Assembly: GCF_003003075.1 (NCBI RefSeq)
Contig: NZ_PVTX01000004.1
Coordinates: 186,001-250,000 of the forward strand
DNA: 64,000 bases
Direction of reading: 5' to 3'
Source of the DNA: Isoptericola halotolerans
GTDB taxonomy: Bacteria > Actinomycetota > Actinomycetes > Actinomycetales > Cellulomonadaceae
Positions 2,944 through 60,555 of the stretch are shown piece by piece (within the stretch, counting starts at the first letter, position 1; each line of letters starts with the position of its first letter). The translations under genes were made by a program, and so were the position numbers. The notes under the pieces were generated by a model. It saw nothing but the letters and a program-made list of their open reading frames with translations. It was not told where the DNA came from and did no database searches.

Positions 2944-4326
2944 TCACTCGCTCGGGCGCTCCTGCAGCACGACGCGGACGTCCCGCTCGTCGTCGCCGCT
3001 GCGGACCCGCAACGTCACGGCGTCGCCGGGCTGGCTGGCCCGGATCGCCACGATGAGCTCGTCGCTCTGCGCCACGGGGCGGCCGTCGATCTCCAGGATG
3101 ATGTCGCCGGCCCGGATCCCGGCCACGTCCGCCGGGCCCCCGTCGGTCACCGGTGCGTTCCCCTGCTGCGCCTCCTCGGCGACCTTGACGCCCTCACCGG
3201 TGTAGCTCGAGTCCAGCAGCACCCCGATGACGGGGTAGGTGGCCTGGCCGGACTCGATGAGCTGCTCGGCGGTGGTGCGCACCTGGTTCGCCGGGATGGC
3301 GAAGCCGAGCCCGATGCTGCCGGTCGCCTGCATGGCGCCCGGCGGCTGCGCGATCGCCGAGTTGATCCCGATGACCTCGCCGGCCGCGTTGACGAGCGGA
3401 CCGCCCGAGTTGCCGGGGTTGATCGCGGCGTCGGTCTGGATCGCGTCGATGAACGCCGTCGTCGCCTGGTCCCCGGCCTGCACGGGCCGGTGCAGCGCGC
3501 TGACGATGCCGGCGGTGACGGTCGAGTCGAGACCGAGCGGCGCCCCGACGGCCAGCACCTCGTCGCCGACCACGACGTCGTCCGAGTCACCCAGCGCGAG
3601 CGGCGTGAGCCCGTCGGCGTCGATCTTCACCACGGCCAGGTCGTAGTCCGAGGTCCGGCCGACCACCTCGCCCTCGTGCTCGCTGCCGTCGGCCAGGACG
3701 ACGACGACCTCACCGCCGCCGGTCCCCGCCGCCACCACGTGGTCGTTGGTCAGGACGTAGCCGTCCGCCCGCAGCACGAACCCGGAGCCGCTGGAGAGGC
3801 TGTCGTCGGCACCGGTGACCTCGAACGACACGACCGACGGCAGGACGTCCGCGGCGGTCGACGCGAGAGAACCCTCCGGCCGGTCGAACCCTGCCGCGGC
3901 CTCGGCGCTGCCCGTCGCGGCCGGCAGCCGTGCGGACGGGTCGCCGTCGGAGCCGGCCCCGGAGATCCGTTCGCCCGCGAACCCGCCCAGGAGCCCGACC
4001 AGCAGGGCGAGGACGAGGATCCCGGCGACACGCGCTCCGCCGAGGCGAGCGCGCGGCGGGTCCGGCGTCCCCGCGCCCGTCGGCGCGGGCTCCCCGGACG
4101 GCGATCCCTCCGACGGCGATCCCTCCGACGGCGGCACCTCGGACGGCGGCCCGGCCGGCCCCGGAGGGGACGGCTCGGTGCGTGCACCACCCGGCACCGA
4201 GGGCGACGTCGGGCCCGGGGTCGGCGACGGGGCCGGGGTCGGCGGCACCTGCACCGGCGCAGGGTCCGGGCGCCGCGCCGGCGGCTCGGGCGCCGCGAAG
4301 AGGTCCGAGGGGTCCTGGTGCGTCAT
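2944..4326 (-). CDS. htrA: membrane-anchored HtrA-type serine protease with PDZ domain
   Basis: The 460-residue product begins at ATG 4324-4326 ([10 protein letters not shown]), overlapping the anti-sigma stop by 4 bp. Residues 1-95 are Pro/Ser/Gly-rich and presumably cytoplasmic, one membrane helix follows at about 98-118, then a trypsin-like domain with His196 (TNDHV), Asp229 (SDYDLAVVK) and Ser307 (NPGNSGGPL), and a PDZ domain at about 365-455. HtrA proteases degrade or refold misfolded extracytoplasmic proteins. Placement in the sigE operon makes it a likely member and possible modulator of the envelope-stress response. The Pro/Ser linker contains near-identical 15-bp DNA repeats at about 4090-4155. 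Confidence 0.93.
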   Translation of the reverse strand: MTHQDPSDLFAAPEPPARRPDPAPVQVPPTPAPSPTPGPTSPSVPGGARTEPSPPGPAGPPSEVPPSEGSPSEGSPSGEPAPTGAGTPDPPRARLGGARVAGILVLALLVGLLGGFAGERISGAGSDGDPSARLPAATGSAEAAAGFDRPEGSLASTAADVLPSVVSFEVTGADDSLSSGSGFVLRADGYVLTNDHVVAAGTGGGEVVVVLADGSEHEGEVVGRTSDYDLAVVKIDADGLTPLALGDSDDVVVGDEVLAVGAPLGLDSTVTAGIVSALHRPVQAGDQATTAFIDAIQTDAAINPGNSGGPLVNAAGEVIGINSAIAQPPGAMQATGSIGLGFAIPANQVRTTAEQLIESGQATYPVIGVLLDSSYTGEGVKVAEEAQQGNAPVTDGGPADVAGIRAGDIILEIDGRPVAQSDELIVAIRASQPGDAVTLRVRSGDDERDVRVVLQERPSE

Positions 4327-5213: not shown

Positions 5214-5794
5214 CGCACCACCTCGGCGCGTCGGTGCTCGAGCGCGTCGCGGAGCTGGGCCCGCGCACGGTGGATGCGGGACCGCACCGTGCCGATCTTG
5301 ATGCCGAGCGTCACCGCGATCTCCTCGTAGCTGAGGCCCTCGATGTCGCACAGGACGACCGCGGCACGGTACTCCGGCCGCAGGGCGTCCAGCGCCGCCT
5401 GCACGTCGTTGTCGAGGTGGGTGTGCTCGAACCCGCGCTCCGGCCGCGCCCGGTCGTCGGTGGCCTCGACGCGCGAGGCGTCCTCGCCCATGGCCTCGAA
5501 CCGGATGCGCTTCTTGCGCCGGACCTGGTCGAGGAACAGGTTCGTGGTGATGCGGTGCAACCAGCCCTCGAACGTGCCCGGCGTGTAGCTGGACAGGGAG
5601 CGGAAGACGCGCAGGAACGTCTCCTGCGTCAGGTCCTCGGCGTCCTGCTTGTCGCCGGTGAGGCGGTACGCCAGCCGGTACACGCGTGCGGAGTGCTCGC
5701 GGACGATCTGGTCCCACGACGGAGGTACCCAGCCCGCGGCAGGGTCGGGCGCTGCAGGGTCGGTACGGTCAGCGGTCTCGGTCATCACGGCCAT
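5210..5794 (-). CDS. sigE: ECF RNA polymerase sigma factor SigE
   Basis: A 194-residue ECF sigma factor: region 2 at about residues 33-100 ('[17 protein letters not shown]', '[19 protein letters not shown]') and region 4 at about 135-185 ('[21 protein letters not shown]'). It should direct transcription of envelope-stress genes. The start could be ATG 5792-5794 (MAVMTET) or ATG 5783-5785. The promoter seen at 5806-5832 would place transcription start within a few bases of 5794, so a leaderless or near-leaderless message is possible. The operon order sigE, anti-sigma, htrA, tatB with a divergent O-methyltransferase matches M. tuberculosis Rv1220c-Rv1224. Confidence 0.95.
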
Positions 5795-6913: not shown

Positions 6914-7867
6914 TCACGCCATCCCGCGCAGAGCCGCACGAGGCGGCGCCTCGTCGCGGACGGCCGCCACCATCTCGAGCGCCTGCCGCGTCGCCGCGAC
7001 GTCGTGCGCACGGAAGACCCGGGCGCCGTGCCACGCCGCGAGCGCCGTCGCGGCGAGCGTGCCCGGCAGCCGGTCCGCCGGCGGGAGGTCGAGCGTCTCC
7101 CCGACGAAGTCCTTGCGGCTCAGCGCCATGAGGACGGGGAACCCGAGCCCGGCGAGCGCCTCCGTGCGGCGCAGGAGGTGCAGCGAGTGCCACGTGTTCT
7201 TGCCGAAGTCGTGCGTGGGGTCCACGAGCACCGACGACGGCGGCACACCGCACGCGACGGCCCGCTCGGCCGCGTCGCGCAACGTCGTCAGCACGTCCTG
7301 GGTGACGCCGTCGCGCGGATCCTCGGGGGTGCCGTGCTGGGTGCCGTCAGCGCCGCCGGCGCCCGGCGGGTACTCCACCCGCCAGGGGTCGGTGCGGGGC
7401 CGCGCCCCGCCCGTGTGCGAGCAGACGACGCCCACCCCGGCCGCGCCCGCGACCTCGACCAGCGCCGGGTCGTGACCGGCCCACGTGTCGTTGATGAGGT
7501 CCGCACCGGCGCGGACGGCTGCGCGGGCGACCTCGGAGCGCCAGGTGTCGACGCTCAGGAGCAGGTCGGGCAGCTCGGCGCGCACCCGCTCGAGGAACGG
7601 CACCACGCGATCGATCTCCTCGGCGACGCCCACCTCGGGGCCGGTGCCCGCCCGGACCCCGCCGACGTCGAGGATCGCGGCGCCCTCGGCCCACGCGGCG
7701 TGGGCGGCCGCGAGCGCCGGGCCGTCGTCGGCGAACCGGGCCGGCGCGTAGAACGAGTCGCTGGTGCGGTTGACGATGGCCATGACCACCGGGCGGGACA
7801 CCCCGCCGGGCCCGCGGCCGACCTCGCGGCCGCGCAGCACGAGGGGTGCGCCCGCGGGCGGGATCAC
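6914..7867 (-). CDS. folP2: dihydropteroate synthase-like protein, FolP2 type
   Basis: A 317-residue pterin-binding TIM-barrel protein. Start chosen at GTG 7865-7867, whose G-T-G-A overlaps the stop of the upstream LOG gene. Motifs resembling DHPS are present ('ILDVGGVRAGTG', 'LLSVDTWRSEVA', 'DLINDTWAG', 'LVDPTHDFGKNTWHSL', 'LMALSRKDFVGE'). However, the usual N-V-T-P-D-S-F start of the pterin site is 'NRTSDSFY'. This pattern and the neighbours match mycobacterial FolP2 (Rv1207). The M. leprae FolP2 paralogue has been reported to lack DHPS activity, so a folate role should not be assumed. A Pro/Gly-rich insertion lies near residues 165-190. Confidence 0.85.
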   Translation of the reverse strand: MIPPAGAPLVLRGREVGRGPGGVSRPVVMAIVNRTSDSFYAPARFADDGPALAAAHAAWAEGAAILDVGGVRAGTGPEVGVAEEIDRVVPFLERVRAELPDLLLSVDTWRSEVARAAVRAGADLINDTWAGHDPALVEVAGAAGVGVVCSHTGGARPRTDPWRVEYPPGAGGADGTQHGTPEDPRDGVTQDVLTTLRDAAERAVACGVPPSSVLVDPTHDFGKNTWHSLHLLRRTEALAGLGFPVLMALSRKDFVGETLDLPPADRLPGTLAATALAAWHGARVFRAHDVAATRQALEMVAAVRDEAPPRAALRGMA

Positions 7868-9837: not shown

Positions 9838-10803
9838 ATGACGACGCCCACCACCTCTGACCGCACCGCCTGGGGACTCGGCCTCGCGACCGTGGCCGAC
9901 GACGGCAGCACGCTCGACGTCTGGTACCCCGCTCCCCAGCTGGGGGTGGCGCCCGACGACGTCGACGTGCCGGCCGATCTCGCGGCCCTCTCGCAGCGGG
10001 ACGACGCGCGGCGGGTGGACGTCGCCGTCGTGCGCACCGAGATCGACCTGGACGCGCCGCCGACCGACGCCGCGGACGCCTACCTGCGGCTGCACCTGAT
10101 CTCCCATCGGCTGGTGGCGCCCCACGGGCTGAACCTCGACGGGTTGTTCGGCAGGCTCACCAACGTGGTGTGGACCTCCCACGGACCGTGCAGCGTCGAG
10201 GGCTTCGAGATCACCCGCCTGCGCCTGCGCGCGTCGACGGACAAGCCCGTCACGGTGTACGGCATCGACAAGTTCCCGCGCATGGTCGACTACGTCGTGC
10301 CGTCCGGAGTGCGGATCGCCGACGCCGACCGGGTGCGGCTCGGCGCGCACCTGGCCGAGGGCACCACGGTCATGCACGAAGGCTTCGTGAACTTCAACGC
10401 GGGCACCCTGGGCGCCTCGATGATCGAGGGCCGGATCTCGGCCGGCGTCGTCGTCGGCGACGGCTCCGACGTCGGTGGCGGCGCCTCGATCATGGGGACC
10501 CTGTCCGGCGGCGGCAAGCAGATCATCTCGATCGGTGAGCGCTGCCTGCTCGGGGCCAACGCCGGCCTCGGCATCCCCCTCGGCGACGACTGCGTCGTCG
10601 AGGCCGGCCTGTACGTCACGGCCGGGACCAAGTGCACGGTGCTCGGAGAGATGGGCGACGAGGGCGAGCCGCGCGTCGTCAAGGCGCTCGAGCTGGCCGG
10701 ACGCGACAACCTCCTGTTCCGCCGCAACTCGCGCACGGGGGCCGTCGAGGTGCTCGCCCGCGCCTCGGGCGTGGAGCTCAACGCCGCCCTGCACGCCAAC
10801 TGA
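9838..10803 (+). CDS. dapD: 2,3,4,5-tetrahydropyridine-2,6-dicarboxylate N-succinyltransferase
   Basis: A 321-residue DapD of the actinobacterial type. It transfers succinyl from succinyl-CoA to tetrahydrodipicolinate. The N-terminal domain ('[20 protein letters not shown]') precedes a left-handed beta-helix of hexapeptide repeats with '[19 protein letters not shown]', '[20 protein letters not shown]' and '[11 protein letters not shown]'. It starts at ATG 9838 and its stop overlaps the next start by 1 bp (TGATG). Confidence 0.96.
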
Positions 10804-11702
10804 TGAGCCGACGACGGCGCTCCGCCGCTGGTTCGGCGGTCGCCGTCGTCGCCATCCTGGCCGTCGGTGTGGGGGCGGTGGCCGGAGTCATCTGGTTCCT
10901 GTCCGCCCGCGAGCCCGCACTGAACCGGGAGCGGTGCACCGCCACCCTCGACGGGACGGGCTGGGAGCTCGCCCCTGTCCAGGCGGAGAACGCGGCGCTC
11001 GTGGTGGGCACCTCGATCCAGCGCGGCCTGCCGGCGCGAGCGGGCACGATCGGGCTCGCGACGGCGCTGCAGGAGTCGAGCCTCGTCAACATCGACTACG
11101 GCGACCGGGACTCGTTGGGCCTGTTCCAGCAACGGCCGTCCCAGGGCTGGGGAACGACCACGGAGATCATGGACCCCGTGTACTCGACGAACAGGTTCTA
11201 CGCGGGGCTCGAGCAGGTCGACGGCTGGCAGGACCTCGAGGTCACGGTGGCAGCCCAGGCGGTGCAGCGGTCCGCCTTCCCGGACGCGTACGCCCAGCAC
11301 GAGACGCTCGCGCGGGCATGGGCCTCCTCGCTGACCGGGCACTCTCCCGGGTCGGTCACGTGCGAGCTGTTCGCCGTCGCCGCCGAGGACGAGCTCGTCG
11401 AGGTCCCGAAGCTGCTGGCGCGGGACCTCGGTGTCCCCGGTGAGGCGGTGAGCGCCGACGGGGCGCTGACCACGATCGACGCCGGCGTGCTGCCCTTCGA
11501 GAGCGCCGAGCGGTCCACGTGGACCGTGGCCCACTGGGCGGTGGCGACGGCGAAGGCGACCGGTACCGCCGAGGTCCGGGCGGAGGGGCTGGTCTGGACA
11601 CGGGCGTCGGGCGATTGGTCGCCCCTCGACGCCGGGTCGGAGCCGCTCGCTCGGGGCACGGTCACCGTGACGCTGGGCACGCCCACGGACGCCCCGAGGT
11701 AG
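10803..11702 (+). CDS. membrane-anchored protein with lysozyme/transglycosylase-like motif
   Basis: A 299-residue protein starting at ATG 10803, one base into the dapD stop. A basic N-terminus (MSRRRRS) is followed by a membrane helix at about residues 9-31, and the rest is presumably extracytoplasmic. The segment 'TIGLATALQESSLVNIDYG' then 'DSLGLFQQRPSQGWG' has the E-S-x-L and G-L-F-Q pattern of SLT/lysozyme-like folds found in many actinobacterial exported proteins. Activity on peptidoglycan is inferred, not shown. The stop codon TAG lies inside the first copy of the 20-bp-spaced CGAGGTAGT array, so the last residues (DAPR) come from the edge of the repeat. Confidence 0.75.
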   Translation: MSRRRRSAAGSAVAVVAILAVGVGAVAGVIWFLSAREPALNRERCTATLDGTGWELAPVQAENAALVVGTSIQRGLPARAGTIGLATALQESSLVNIDYGDRDSLGLFQQRPSQGWGTTTEIMDPVYSTNRFYAGLEQVDGWQDLEVTVAAQAVQRSAFPDAYAQHETLARAWASSLTGHSPGSVTCELFAVAAEDELVEVPKLLARDLGVPGEAVSADGALTTIDAGVLPFESAERSTWTVAHWAVATAKATGTAEVRAEGLVWTRASGDWSPLDAGSEPLARGTVTVTLGTPTDAPR

Positions 11703-11814
11703 TAACCCGTTGCGCGAGGTAGTAGCGCTCACGCCGAGGTAGTGACAGGTTGCGCGAGGTAGTGGCGCTTGCGCCGAGGTAGTACCTCGCGTGTCGAGGT
11801 AGTGCGGGGTGGGT
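11695..11814 (+). repeat. six-copy direct array, CGAGGTAGT every 20 bp
   Basis: CGAGGTAGT occurs at 11695, 11715, 11735, 11755, 11775 and 11795: six perfect 9-base cores with exactly 20-bp spacing and 11 variable bases between. Variable parts of units 1 and 3, and of units 2 and 4, resemble each other, giving a weak 40-bp higher-order period. The first core contains the TAG stop of the upstream gene. There is no coding sequence in the array. Confidence 0.95.
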
Positions 11815-11822
11815 CGGGTTCC

Positions 11823-11916
11823 GCCGGGTGTCGGGTCCCGTGCACGGTCGCGTTCACGGGCGCAGGGCGCCCTCCACTTCGGGACTGACGACCGTGCACG
11901 GGACCCGACACCCGGC
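11823..11916. repeat. perfect 28-bp inverted repeat at centre of the array pair
   Basis: Bases 11823-11850 are the exact reverse complement of 11889-11916, with a 38-base spacer that itself contains the palindrome AGGGCGCCCT. In RNA from either strand this forms a very stable stem. It lies between the direct and inverted halves of the 20-bp-spaced arrays, in the convergent region between the 10803 gene and gltA. A bidirectional terminator or a structured RNA element are both possible. Confidence 0.95.
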
Positions 11917-11944
11917 TTTGAGCTTCCCGCCCGGCGCTCCCTCA

Positions 11945-12064
11945 CGCCGTCGGGCACTACCTCGCGCCGCGCGCTACTACCTCGGCGGACGGCCCACTAC
12001 CTCGCGCCGCGCGCCACTACCTCGGCGGGCGGGGCGCTACCTCGGGGCGAGCGGCACTATCTCG
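11945..12064 (-). repeat. six-copy inverted array, reverse complement of CGAGGTAGT every 20 bp
   Basis: ACTACCTCG or a one-base variant occurs at 11956, 11976, 11996, 12016, 12036 (GCTACCTCG) and 12056 (ACTATCTCG), exactly 20 bp apart. Units ending at 11984 and 12024 are nearly identical across all 20 bases. The six copies face the six forward copies at 11695-11814. The array ends 9 bp before the gltA stop codon. Together with the 28-bp inverted repeat it fills the whole 371-bp gap between the two convergent genes. Confidence 0.95.
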
Positions 12065-12073
12065 GCGGGGTGG

Positions 12074-13375
<1,302 letters not shown>

Positions 13376-15408: not shown

Positions 15409-15437
15409 GCTACCTCGGCGCGAGCGGTACTACCTCG
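15409..15437 (-). repeat. two copies of the CGAGGTAGT element, 20 bp apart, forming the tyrA 3' end
   Basis: On the minus strand CGAGGTAGT (15429-15437) is followed exactly 20 bp on by CGAGGTAGC (15409-15417). Core and spacing match the large array at 11695-12064. The second copy supplies the tyrA stop codon TAG (15410-15412). The first encodes Glu-Val-Val near the C-terminus, so the final dozen residues of TyrA come from the element. Confidence 0.85.
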
Positions 15438-16426
15438 GCGTAGGTGGGGGTGAGGCCGACGACGACGGCGCCCGCCGTGCAGCGCTCGACCAGCGCCGCC
15501 GGCCAGCCCGCGGTCAACGGCACCTGCTCCACCGCGGTGGGAGCCGCGCCGGCGGGCACCGGCGGGTGGCCGGTCTGCCGCACGGCGTCGGCGGCGCGGA
15601 AGAACGCGTGCGTCGAGGCGTTGGTCTCCAGCGCCTCGATCACGAGCTCCAGGTCCCGCACCACCTTGCGCAGCGCGGGCGCGACCCAGGCGGCGTTCTG
15701 GGTGACCATGGCCTCGGTGCGCGCCGGGTCGGTGAACGCCACCCGCGTGCCGTCGCGGAAGCTTCCCGCGGCGAGCCCGAGCGCCACGTCGCGCACGGGC
15801 GCGCCGGCCACGGCGTTCAGCAGCTGGGTGGCGACCACGTGCGGGACGTGGCTGACCAGCGCGGCGGCCTCGTCGTGCACCTCGTCGGTGAGGACGGCGA
15901 CCGTGCCGGCGCACGGTCCGGTGACCAGCTCCAGCACGGTGGCGAGCCGCGCCGGGTCGACCGCCGGGTCGACCGTCACGGCCCAGCGCACCCCGTCCAG
16001 CAGGCTAGCCTCCGAGGCGTCGAACCCGCTGTGCTCGGTCCCCGCCATCGGGTGCGCGCCGACGTAGCGGTCGCCCAGGCCCGCCGCGCGCACCTCCGTG
16101 CGCACCGGCCCCTTGACGCTGCCCACGTCGGTCACGGTGGCCGATGCCGGGGCGTGCGCGGCGACGTCGGCCGCCACCGCGGGCATCGCCCGCAACGGGG
16201 TGGCGAGGACCACCAGGCCGGCGTCCGCGACGCACCCCGCGACGTCGTCGGCGACGGTCAGGCCCGCCCGCCGGGCGGCGGCGCGCGTGGCGGCCGACAC
16301 GTCCGTGGCCACGACGTCGACGCCCCGGGCGGCCAGCAGACGGGCCAGCGACCCGCCGATGAGCCCGAGCCCGACGACGGCGACCCGAGGCGCGTCCTCG
16401 CGCCCGGCGGCGCCGGCGCTCACCAC
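15410..16426 (-). CDS. tyrA: prephenate dehydrogenase
   Basis: A 338-residue enzyme converting prephenate to 4-hydroxyphenylpyruvate for tyrosine synthesis. It has a Rossmann 'VAVVGLGLIGGSLARLLAARG', 'TDVGSVKGPV', 'GAHPMAGTEHSGF' (catalytic His) and the helical C-terminal domain 'SHVPHVVATQLLNAV'. GTG start at 16424-16426 (or 16421-16423) overlaps the pheA stop, so the pair is coupled. The last residues, '...AEVVPLAPR' and the TAG stop, are encoded by two copies of the 20-bp-spaced repeat, suggesting that the native 3' end was replaced or extended. Confidence 0.93.
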   Translation of the reverse strand: MVSAGAAGREDAPRVAVVGLGLIGGSLARLLAARGVDVVATDVSAATRAAARRAGLTVADDVAGCVADAGLVVLATPLRAMPAVAADVAAHAPASATVTDVGSVKGPVRTEVRAAGLGDRYVGAHPMAGTEHSGFDASEASLLDGVRWAVTVDPAVDPARLATVLELVTGPCAGTVAVLTDEVHDEAAALVSHVPHVVATQLLNAVAGAPVRDVALGLAAGSFRDGTRVAFTDPARTEAMVTQNAAWVAPALRKVVRDLELVIEALETNASTHAFFRAADAVRQTGHPPVPAGAAPTAVEQVPLTAGWPAALVERCTAGAVVVGLTPTYAEVVPLAPR

Positions 16427-58923: not shown

Positions 58924-60555
58924 TCAGCGGGCGCGGGCCACGCGGCCCTCGTCCCAGACGGGCTCCGCGGACTCCCGCACCGTGCCGTCCTGACCGAACA
59001 CGAGGAACCGGTCGAAGCCGCGGGCGAACCACCGGTCGTGGGTCACCGCGAGCACCGTGCCGTCGAACGCCTCGAGGCCCTCCTGCAGCGCCTCGGCGCT
59101 CTCGAGGTCGAGGTTGTCGGTGGGCTCGTCGAGCAGCAGCGCGGTGCACCCGGCGAGCTCGAGCAGCAGGATCTGGAACCGGGCCTGCTGCCCGCCGGAG
59201 AGCCGGTCGAAGGGCCGCTCGGCCGCCGTCGTGAGCTCGTACCGGCGCAGCGCCGCCATCGCCTTGCCGCGGTCCTGCGCATGGTCCTCCCAGAGGATGT
59301 CGCGCAGCGTGCGGCCCGCCAGCTCCGGGTGCGCGTGGGTCTGGGCGAAGTGGCCCGGCACCACGCGTGCCCCGAGGCGCGCGGACCCGGTGTGCGCCAC
59401 GTCGCCGCCCGCGAGCAGGCGCAGGAAGTGCGACTTGCCCGACCCGTTGGAGCCGAGGACGGCGACCCGCTCGCCGTAGAAGACCTCGAGGTCGAACGGC
59501 TCCATGAGCCCGACGAGCTCCAGCTCCTCGCACATGACCGCCCGCGTGCCCGTGCGCCCGCCCCGCAGCCGCATGCGGATGTCCTGCTCGCGCGGCGGCT
59601 CGGGCGGCGGGCCGGCCTCCTCGAACTTGCGCAGACGCGTCTGCGCCGCGCGGTAGCGCGACGCCATGTCCGGGCTGTTCGCCGCCTGCTGGCGCAGGGT
59701 CAGCACGAGCTTCTTGAGCTGCGCGTGCTTCTCGTCCCAGCGCCGGCGCAGCTCCTCGAAGCGCGCGAACCGCTCGCGGCGGGCCGTGTGGAAGGTCTCG
59801 AAGCCGGCCCCGTGCACCCACGCGTCCGATCCCGCCGGCCCGGGCTCCAGCGCGACGATCCGGTCCGCCGCGCGCGCGAGCAGCTCGCGGTCGTGGGACA
59901 CGAACAGCACCGTCTTGCGGGTGGCGCGGAGCTGCTCCTCCAGCCACCGCTTGCCCGGCACGTCGAGGTAGTTGTCGGGCTCGTCCAGGAGCAGCACCTC
60001 GTCGGGCCCGCGCAGCAGCGCCTCGAGCACCAGCCGCTTCTGCTCGCCGCCCGAGAGCGTCCGCACCTCCCGCCACTGGGCGCGCTCGAACTCGACGCCG
60101 AGCGCCGCCGTCGTGCACACGTCCCAGAGCGTCTCGGCCTCGTAGCCCTGCACCTCCGCCCAGTCGGCGAGCGCCTGGGCGTAGCGCATCTGGGCCGGGA
60201 CCCCGTCGACGCCGGCGTCCAGCTCCATCACCTCCTGCTCCGCCTCCTCGACGGCGCGGGCGGCGTCGCGGACCCGCGGCGGCGCGACGCCGGCGAGGAG
60301 CTGCCGCACGGTGGTGCCGTCGCGCACGGATCCCACGAACTGCGGCATGATCCCCAGCCCGCCGCTCACCGTCACGGCGCCGGCGTCCGGCAGGAGATCC
60401 CCGGTGATCAGCCGCAGCAGCGTCGTCTTGCCCGCACCGTTCGGGCCGACGAGCGCGGTCGCGCTGCCCTCCCCGACGCGGAAGGAGACGTCGTCGAGCA
60501 GCGCGCGCCCGTCCGGCAGCACGTACTCCACGTGCGCGACCTCAAGATGACCCAT
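58924..60555 (-). CDS. ABC-F family ATPase (ribosome-associated)
   Basis: A 543-residue protein with two ATPase cassettes and no membrane domain, from ATG 60553-60555. Walker A 'LVGPNGAGKTTLLRLITG' and 'VLGSNGSGKSHFLRLLAG', signatures 'TLSGGEQKRLVLEALL' and 'RLSGGQQARFQILLLEL', Walker B 'VLLLDEPDNYLD' and 'ALLLDEPTDNLD'. The charged linker with 'EKHAQLKKLVLTLRQQA' is the ABC-F interdomain arm. These proteins act on the ribosome, in translation rescue or antibiotic protection. Its stop is 7 bp from the convergent xseA stop. Confidence 0.92.
   Translation of the reverse strand: MGHLEVAHVEYVLPDGRALLDDVSFRVGEGSATALVGPNGAGKTTLLRLITGDLLPDAGAVTVSGGLGIMPQFVGSVRDGTTVRQLLAGVAPPRVRDAARAVEEAEQEVMELDAGVDGVPAQMRYAQALADWAEVQGYEAETLWDVCTTAALGVEFERAQWREVRTLSGGEQKRLVLEALLRGPDEVLLLDEPDNYLDVPGKRWLEEQLRATRKTVLFVSHDRELLARAADRIVALEPGPAGSDAWVHGAGFETFHTARRERFARFEELRRRWDEKHAQLKKLVLTLRQQAANSPDMASRYRAAQTRLRKFEEAGPPPEPPREQDIRMRLRGGRTGTRAVMCEELELVGLMEPFDLEVFYGERVAVLGSNGSGKSHFLRLLAGGDVAHTGSARLGARVVPGHFAQTHAHPELAGRTLRDILWEDHAQDRGKAMAALRRYELTTAAERPFDRLSGGQQARFQILLLELAGCTALLLDEPTDNLDLESAEALQEGLEAFDGTVLAVTHDRWFARGFDRFLVFGQDGTVRESAEPVWDEGRVARAR

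Follow-up and report, generated by a model that had tools for sequence, protein, structure and literature searches.

Architecture of the locus

The window, i.e., the whole stretch of 64,000 nucleotides that was analysed, covers 186001-250000 of contig 4 in a genome of 3.85 Mb (G000), which by kinship groups with Isoptericola, and contains two opposed runs of a short core in the gap between two convergent genes. Such a run of core copies at a pitch of ~20 bp is called a row in the following. The features of the locus are:

10803..11702, + strand, gene of 299 amino acids, family unassigned, without a Pfam match (own gene caller, Pfam search)
11695..11803, + strand, sense row of six CGAGGTAGT cores at an exact 20-bp pitch (sequence)
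11804..11955, no strand, centre of 152 bp between the opposed rows (sequence)
11823..11916, no strand, perfect 28-bp inverted repeat (11823-11850 / 11889-11916) with a 38-nt loop (sequence)
11956..12064, − strand, opposed row of six cores at an exact 20-bp pitch, running in sense out of the citrate synthase gene (sequence)
12074..13375, − strand, citrate synthase gene gltA (PF00285), with its 3′ end toward the row (Pfam)
15409..15437, − strand, second short row (one exact core and one core with a mismatch) where the gene 15410-16426 (−) ends (sequence)

The plus-strand CGAGGTAGT cores start at 11695, 11715, 11735, 11755, 11775, and 11795, and all six are exact; the reverse cores start at 11956, 11976, 11996, and 12016 (exact) and at 12036 and 12056 (one mismatch each). 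Six cores facing six reverse cores at 20-bp steps, with four perfect and two mismatched reverse copies, is exactly what the original prediction had described. Its figure of 120 bp for each half has to be corrected to 109 bp, measured from the first to the last core. The arrays had also been said to fill the convergent gap; the first core in fact overlaps the upstream gene and includes its TAG stop (11700-11702). The 28-bp inverted repeat in the centre is an addition to that prediction. At the second short row, the TAG stop of the gene 15410-16426 lies inside the second core. The window contains 13 copies of CGAGGTAGT, versus 0.13 expected from shuffles, and two lone exact copies lie outside the rows, at 2327-2335 and 59964-59972.

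A constant pitch and a conserved asymmetric core

The 20-bp spacing recurs throughout G000. A genome scan gave 142 core pairs at 19-21 bp versus 0 for the reversed pattern, which bears out the spacing as more than a local peculiarity; at exactly 20 bp, there are 139 CGAGGTAGT pairs (45 + 94), and again the reversed pattern gave none. We found 62 rows with 308 units in 41 stretches of G000, which were chosen where matches were (the stretch L182 was left out of the row, unit, and centre counts). Successive exact cores on the same strand, up to 100 bp apart, are separated by 20 bp in 138, 40 bp in 18, 60 bp in 4, and 21 bp in 3 of 163 cases. Two rows lie where the stretches L137 and L138 overlap; they enter once in the 62-row, unit, and distance counts (171 distances with the duplicates, 163 unique) and twice in the pair, spacer-match, and 149-row counts given below.

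The same pitch emerges without assuming any core. Repeated intergenic 7-mers at a lag of 20 number 456 in 400 kb of G000, a region known to hold rows, and 776 in 400 kb of the genome G058, where nine of the 20 stretches were taken because matches were listed there, compared with 24-65 at lags of 19 and 21 in these two samples. The other 11 G058 stretches, whose choice did not depend on matches, gave 163 at lag 20 but 5 and 7 at the neighbouring lags (19 and 21). In the close relative G021, the count at lag 20 is 5.

Among 246 internal units of G000, core positions 1-8 (CGAGGTAG) are conserved in 98-100%, position 9 is T in 83%, and position 10 is a purine in 96%. The remainder of the unit is a GC-rich spacer whose length is fixed and whose sequence is free. 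Both the core and the 20-bp consensus are asymmetric, not palindromic. The number of units per row ranges from 2 to 10 in G000 and reaches 12 in G094 and G058. The rows are thus phased arrays, with a constant helical pitch and a conserved asymmetric core.

Position and polarity at gene ends

Gene ends were taken from our own codon-usage caller, without annotation, and small genes were possibly missed. On this basis, 53 of the 62 rows in the 41 G000 stretches run in sense out of the 3′ end of the upstream gene. The unpaired rows are sense in 27 of 28 cases (the antisense one is in L149), and the paired rows in 26 of 34; the eight antisense arms belong to pairs between co-directional genes. The two 400-kb samples from G000 and G058 contain 46 rows, of which 40 come directly after a sense gene and none is situated between divergent genes; by gap class, rows are present in 17 of 138 convergent, 15 of 425 co-directional, and 0 of 137 divergent gaps (700 gaps in all). 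The G058 stretches not chosen for matches (n = 11) contain five rows, four sense and one antisense. Among the matches listed from several genomes (92 stretches), at least 149 rows are present, of which 37 are far from a called sense gene end and 18 have none called. The rows, with the exception of the 9 antisense ones among 62, sit at transcription-unit ends with a fixed polarity.

The TAG stop codon of the gene lies inside a core in 26 of the 62 rows, in the first core in 20, the second in 5, and the third in 1. Lone exact 8-base cores are placed differently: 1 of 48 in G000 and 0 of 50 in G058 are at gene ends, and 47 of 48 and 49 of 50, respectively, are inside coding sequence. Since lone cores are not concentrated at gene ends, the unit is the row as a whole.

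Where a row starts at least 40 nt past the stop codon (20 cases from several genomes, three of the intervals with another row), nine of the intervals contain a perfect stem of at least 8 bp, versus 143 of 1000 length-matched gene ends. This excess indicates that a terminator-like hairpin often precedes the row. With regard to a possible replacement of intrinsic terminators by rows, convergent gaps of G058 and G000 with at least 40 unmasked bases were compared: a stem of at least 9 bp was found in 3 of 12 with rows and in 23 of 50 without, both being small numbers.

The placement at gene ends, with rows in convergent and co-directional but not in divergent gaps, would also suit a topological element, in which a protein or topoisomerase recruited to the rows would handle the overwound DNA that accumulates at gene 3′ ends, similar to sites of GapR or gyrase; a length of 20 bp per two turns would be slightly overwound as well. 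We consider this improbable, as neither the strong sequence specificity nor the polarity is expected of a supercoil sensor.

Core types, distribution, and turnover

The letters of the core differ between genomes. Type 1 is CGAGGTAGT; type 2, CGAGGTAGGCAAC, occurs in G058 and, by inspection of matches, the same kind of core occurs in G042; type 3, CGAGTCAGCGCA, occurs in G425 and G428. The pitch, polarity, and place are kept across the three types. In 280 kb of G425 and G428, which have type 3 rows though they lack GGTAG triplets at the 20-bp pitch, we counted 12 rows, with samples that start at the gltA end, where a row had already been seen, and with three row stretches at one gene end counted apart. 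Their steps are 20 bp (42) and 40 bp (5), 11 of the 12 are sense, and opposed pairs are present.

The type 3 consensus contains no sense-frame stop; a T as the first letter, found in 12% of its units, creates a TGA. Other species retain the pitch, polarity, and place although their cores differ, and CGAGTCAGCGCA has no such stop; the stop codon in the core therefore seems incidental. A three-frame translation stop cassette, in which TAG-bearing cores close all frames (three suffice because a step of 20 shifts the frame), would account for the TAG in the core, for the 26 of 62 genes that end inside a core, and for the TGA of some type 3 units; however, the type 3 rows have the same layout without the stop and largely refute it as a general function. 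In addition, such a cassette would need only its stop conserved, yet positions 1-8 are equally conserved, and we give it hardly any credence.

GGTAG triplets at the 20-bp pitch were found in 11 of 18 genomes of the genus (5 to 176 matches; 0 in the other seven) and in 10 of 101 genomes of the family sample, with more than 4 matches only in this genus; the reversed-pattern control gave 1 match in each of two genomes of the family sample and 2 in G425 within the genus. Of 347 genomes of the order, three have the stricter GAGGTAG triplet, and all three belong to this genus. G021 has 0 GGTAG triplets genome-wide and no rows in a 400-kb sample, and no rows were seen in samples of G072 and G424 (140 kb each) and G429 (120 kb). 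Samples taken for the core type of G434 (40 kb) and G427 (20 kb) contained none either. G084 has one weak opposed pair of type 3. In a gltA tree, the array-free G021 stands beside the array-bearing G000 and G094, and G084 stands beside G058; the presence of rows is therefore patchy. At the gltA end itself, five of the 21 genomes compared have rows (G000, G042, G425, G428, and G078), and G058, G094, G426, G434, and others are row-rich genomes, yet have none there.

The original prediction had named close relatives that lack the array, with no other change at the locus, as evidence against it. G021, whose GltA is 97% identical, is in part such a relative, with a short hairpin in place of the rows; in view of the genome-wide counts, this shows a lineage-dependent presence and not chance.

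Certain gene ends with rows in G000 also bear rows in G094, Isoptericola QY 916, or Krasilnikoviella flava. The number of units and the spacers vary at such ends, even between L143 and L171, with flanking proteins of 97% identity, and each lineage has its own spacer consensus. Short type 1 rows with the same layout occur in Cellulosimicrobium, with steps of 20 bp (16) and 21 bp (11), as well as in Occultella gossypii and one actinobacterial MAG. In viral contigs, the type 1 exact pair gave one match (L123, ~10752), which is a 10-bp tandem repeat of CGAGGTAGTG, and type 2 gave none; with these two types searched, a phage origin was rejected.

This turnover brings in the main rival to the interpretation given below, a selfish or neutral minisatellite-like element whose 20-bp units multiply, shuffle between loci, and survive at gene 3′ ends, where they do least harm, without a host function. 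The fast change that close relatives show in unit number and spacers, the lineage-wide spacer consensus, as in concerted evolution, the patchy occurrence within the genus (11 of 18), and the six near-identical composite copies in one genome, described in the next section, all agree with it. However, the core and pitch stay fixed while the spacers drift, which requires selection or a strict copying machine; the avoidance of harm alone gives no polarity, whereas 27 of 28 unpaired rows are sense; and some sites are common to Isoptericola and Krasilnikoviella genomes. On balance, we regard such an element as rather unlikely.

Opposed pairs, their centres, and RNA folding

All 61 row pairs found within 450 bp, the distance to which pairs were sought, are convergent and none is divergent (seven sets of loci). 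The space between the arms of the 18 G000 pairs is 0-159 bp in 15, including six with no more than 21 bp, and 290, 383, and 1181 bp in the other three, whose centres hold genes from our own gene caller. The centre may be missing altogether, may consist of a short palindrome or a terminator-like hairpin, or may contain a called gene. Of all 62 rows, 28 have no partner. In L141 (~4014-4031) and L153 (~4074-4122), the opposed rows meet in the perfect palindrome CGAGGTAGTACTACCTCG, and the palindrome is longer in L095 (~7060-7165); these junctions look like products of template switching.

The central hairpin of the window has a near letter-for-letter copy at five other G000 loci, six array loci in total. 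It is a member of a separate dispersed hairpin family, which is also present in array-free relatives. This family (window 11823-11916, L186, L187, and others) gave 3-21 matches per genome in eight of eight genomes, some at the same place on both strands. An interior of ~56 nt is conserved and the outer stem differs by locus; neither the hairpin nor any other part of the window matched Rfam at the gathering score.

The ends of Mu and Tn7 are inward-facing multi-site ends, and the opposed rows resemble them in layout. Mobile-element ends that bind a transposase at several sites and were inserted beside genes would fit this layout and the six near-identical composites, but the transposase or cargo between inverted ends that marks Mu/Tn7-type elements was not found: with 15 of the 18 centres at 159 bp or less and six at 21 bp or less, most are too short for a transposase gene. 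The Y1-type (RAYT) transposase PF01797, the only transposase family searched, was detected in 0 of 11 genomes, with controls positive in 5 of 14. Furthermore, 28 of the 62 rows are unpaired, the rows run into the stop codon, so that their edges are ill defined, and the viral contigs yielded only the one type 1 pair mentioned above and nothing of type 2. An origin as mobile-element ends is very improbable.

In RNA, the two halves of the window array had been suggested as able to pair as a rod. Such a rod is indeed predicted for the whole element (z = −13.8), but mirrored cores together with the central hairpin give a rod anyway. Mirrored spacers match hardly better than spacers of other loci, with values of 0.51 versus 0.48 in G000, 0.57 versus 0.48 in QY916, 0.58 versus 0.54 in K. 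flava, and 0.60 versus 0.56 in G058, and in Cellulosimicrobium they match less well than the control (n = 3). RNA pairing across the spacers accordingly has little support, and because 28 of the 62 rows are unpaired as well, pairing of the arms is not general. Folding of five single arms gave z values of −1.6, 0.9, −0.4, and −0.4 for four of them and −6.3 for L145.

These foldings bear on an RNA-level 3′-end element, in which CGAGGUAGU words in the sense transcript would be bound by an RNA-binding protein, or the arms would pair, and the 3′ end of the mRNA would be stabilised or processed. The sense polarity, the nearness to the stop codon, the long rod of the whole element, and the well-folding arm of L145 are in accord with this, but four of the five single arms are barely beyond shuffles and mirrored spacers are hardly more alike than the control. 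The frequent location of rows past a terminator-like hairpin also counts against it, and single-stranded RNA has no evident need for an exact 20-nt pitch; an action at the RNA level is therefore unlikely in our view, if less so than the topological element.

Comparison with known repeats

We know of no named element with a fixed pitch, a fixed core, and a fixed polarity, and a description of such rows was not found among the best-ranked matches in the open-licence literature. REP/BIME sequences are interspersed and intergenic, often lie at gene 3′ ends in opposed orientations, and are linked to RAYT transposases. The rows share with them the intergenic place, the 3′ ends, and the opposed orientations, and type 1 and 2 cores contain GTAG; in contrast to REP/BIME, they have a non-palindromic core, a fixed 20-bp tandem pitch, and core letters that differ within one genus. 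A REP/RAYT system was rejected, as no Y1 transposase was found in the 11 genomes and the unit is not an imperfect palindrome. Mycobacterial MIRU-type units are ~50 bp in length, lie between co-directional genes, and are not known to have a phased short core. They are similar to the rows as variable-number tandem units at stop codons in actinobacteria, but the MIRU units are longer.

In the case of Beggiatoaceae, direct repeats of the heptamer TAACTGA have been reported that are genome-wide, mostly intergenic, polar, and patchy, with stop codons in the unit; one genome has 169 sets, and in the main genome, the 7-bp repeats are mostly just upstream of start codons (PMC4679880). The rows resemble these repeats in being genome-wide, polar, patchy, and built of stop-bearing units, but differ from them as interrupted 20-bp units downstream of genes and in opposed pairs (PMC4679880). 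A place before start codons was not seen for the rows, with 0 of 46 in divergent gaps and 40 of 46 after a sense gene. The BrickBuilt MITE of Porphyromonas gingivalis contains 23-bp repeats without spacers, inverted leader and tail ends, and promoter elements, and its abstract reports no gene-end polarity (PMC4596501). BrickBuilt resembles the rows in that its tandem repeats, of ~20 bp, are intergenic, limited to a species, and part of a dispersed element, whereas the actinobacterial rows have spacers and gene-end polarity (PMC4596501).

A putative polar barrier at transcription-unit ends

The window locus is one member of a family of helically phased polar rows that occurs throughout the genome, is specific to certain lineages, and marks transcription-unit ends. 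To our knowledge, how high-GC actinobacteria end or insulate their transcription units is poorly understood, and we know of no phased bacterial rows of a roadblock kind. A constant pitch with changed core letters, one-way asymmetric sites, and a place at unit ends are expected of head-to-tail sites of a cooperative protein. From this layout, we tentatively favour, short of calling it probable, the reading that the rows are head-to-tail sites for a putative cooperative DNA-binding protein that would form a polar barrier at transcription-unit ends. Each core would be the site of one protein subunit, and the subunits would lie head to tail on one face of the DNA, two turns apart and touching each other. 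The row would then act as a one-way barrier or insulator that keeps RNA polymerase from reading past the gene or terminator, and opposed rows may guard both sides. A polymeric DNA-binding protein was among the roles suggested in the original prediction; it is the best fit, as the pitch is kept while spacers and core letters change, although the protein itself is putative. The frequent location of rows past a terminator-like hairpin was counted in favour of an action at the DNA level over one at the mRNA level.

Roadblock termination in yeast offers a parallel. A DNA-bound, sequence-specific protein, Reb1 or Rap1, stops read-through there, and the block by Rap1 depends on orientation (PMC10310618). 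By analogy with these two blocks, we propose that the rows may serve as barriers, with the difference that Reb1 and Rap1 are eukaryotic (PMC10310618).

Several observations were counted against the barrier reading. Antisense rows exist (8 of 34 paired and 1 of 28 unpaired), a row seems superfluous where a good terminator precedes it, row-rich genomes may have no rows at a given gene (gltA ends, 5 of 21), the copy number varies from 2 to 12, and Cellulosimicrobium mixes 20- and 21-bp steps. Some close relatives, such as G021, have no rows, so the job of a barrier would be dispensable. Two turns of relaxed DNA amount to ~21 bp, and 20 bp is not exactly two turns. No binding protein for the core was found, the single guess checked being LytTR. 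Sites of LytTR response regulators are 9-bp direct repeats about two turns apart; LytTR was rejected as the binding factor, with one copy in each of nine genomes, including array-free ones, and none in K. flava and G007.

Because the core word changes from species to species at an unchanged spacing, the rows look like an undescribed system and might serve as docking sites of a protein that would mark or block transcription ends. A wider claim, doubtful but conceivable, is that they represent a new class of transcription-unit-end barrier, in which a species-specific protein would polymerise head to tail on 20-bp sites right after the stop or terminator, with the recognition word rewritten at least twice in one genus, the pitch kept, and, as a consequence, the protein and its full set of sites across the genome co-evolving. 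With dozens of phased and polar copies, whose core letters vary by species at a constant pitch, the rows would be a natural experiment in protein-site co-evolution; even if selfish, they would be a repeat class with a rule of fixed pitch, core, and polarity.

Other repeats and hairpins

Units of CGAGGTAGTCCCGGTTCC at ~20 bp, partly inside ORFs, are present in Chloroflexi MAGs (L082, ~5349-5428; L099, ~1750-1850; L117, ~3808). Nocardioides immobilis contains an identical two-unit sequence in L039 (4729-4757) and L086 (2286-2314), and the L039 copy is antisense after an ORF. By eye, the gltA 3′ flank of G072, G007, and G032 (L190, L191, and L193) bears another long hairpin, with outer stems that differ and a recurring interior around GGCGGGAG, GAGGAACGAG, and CGGATGGA, which may be a second structured element.
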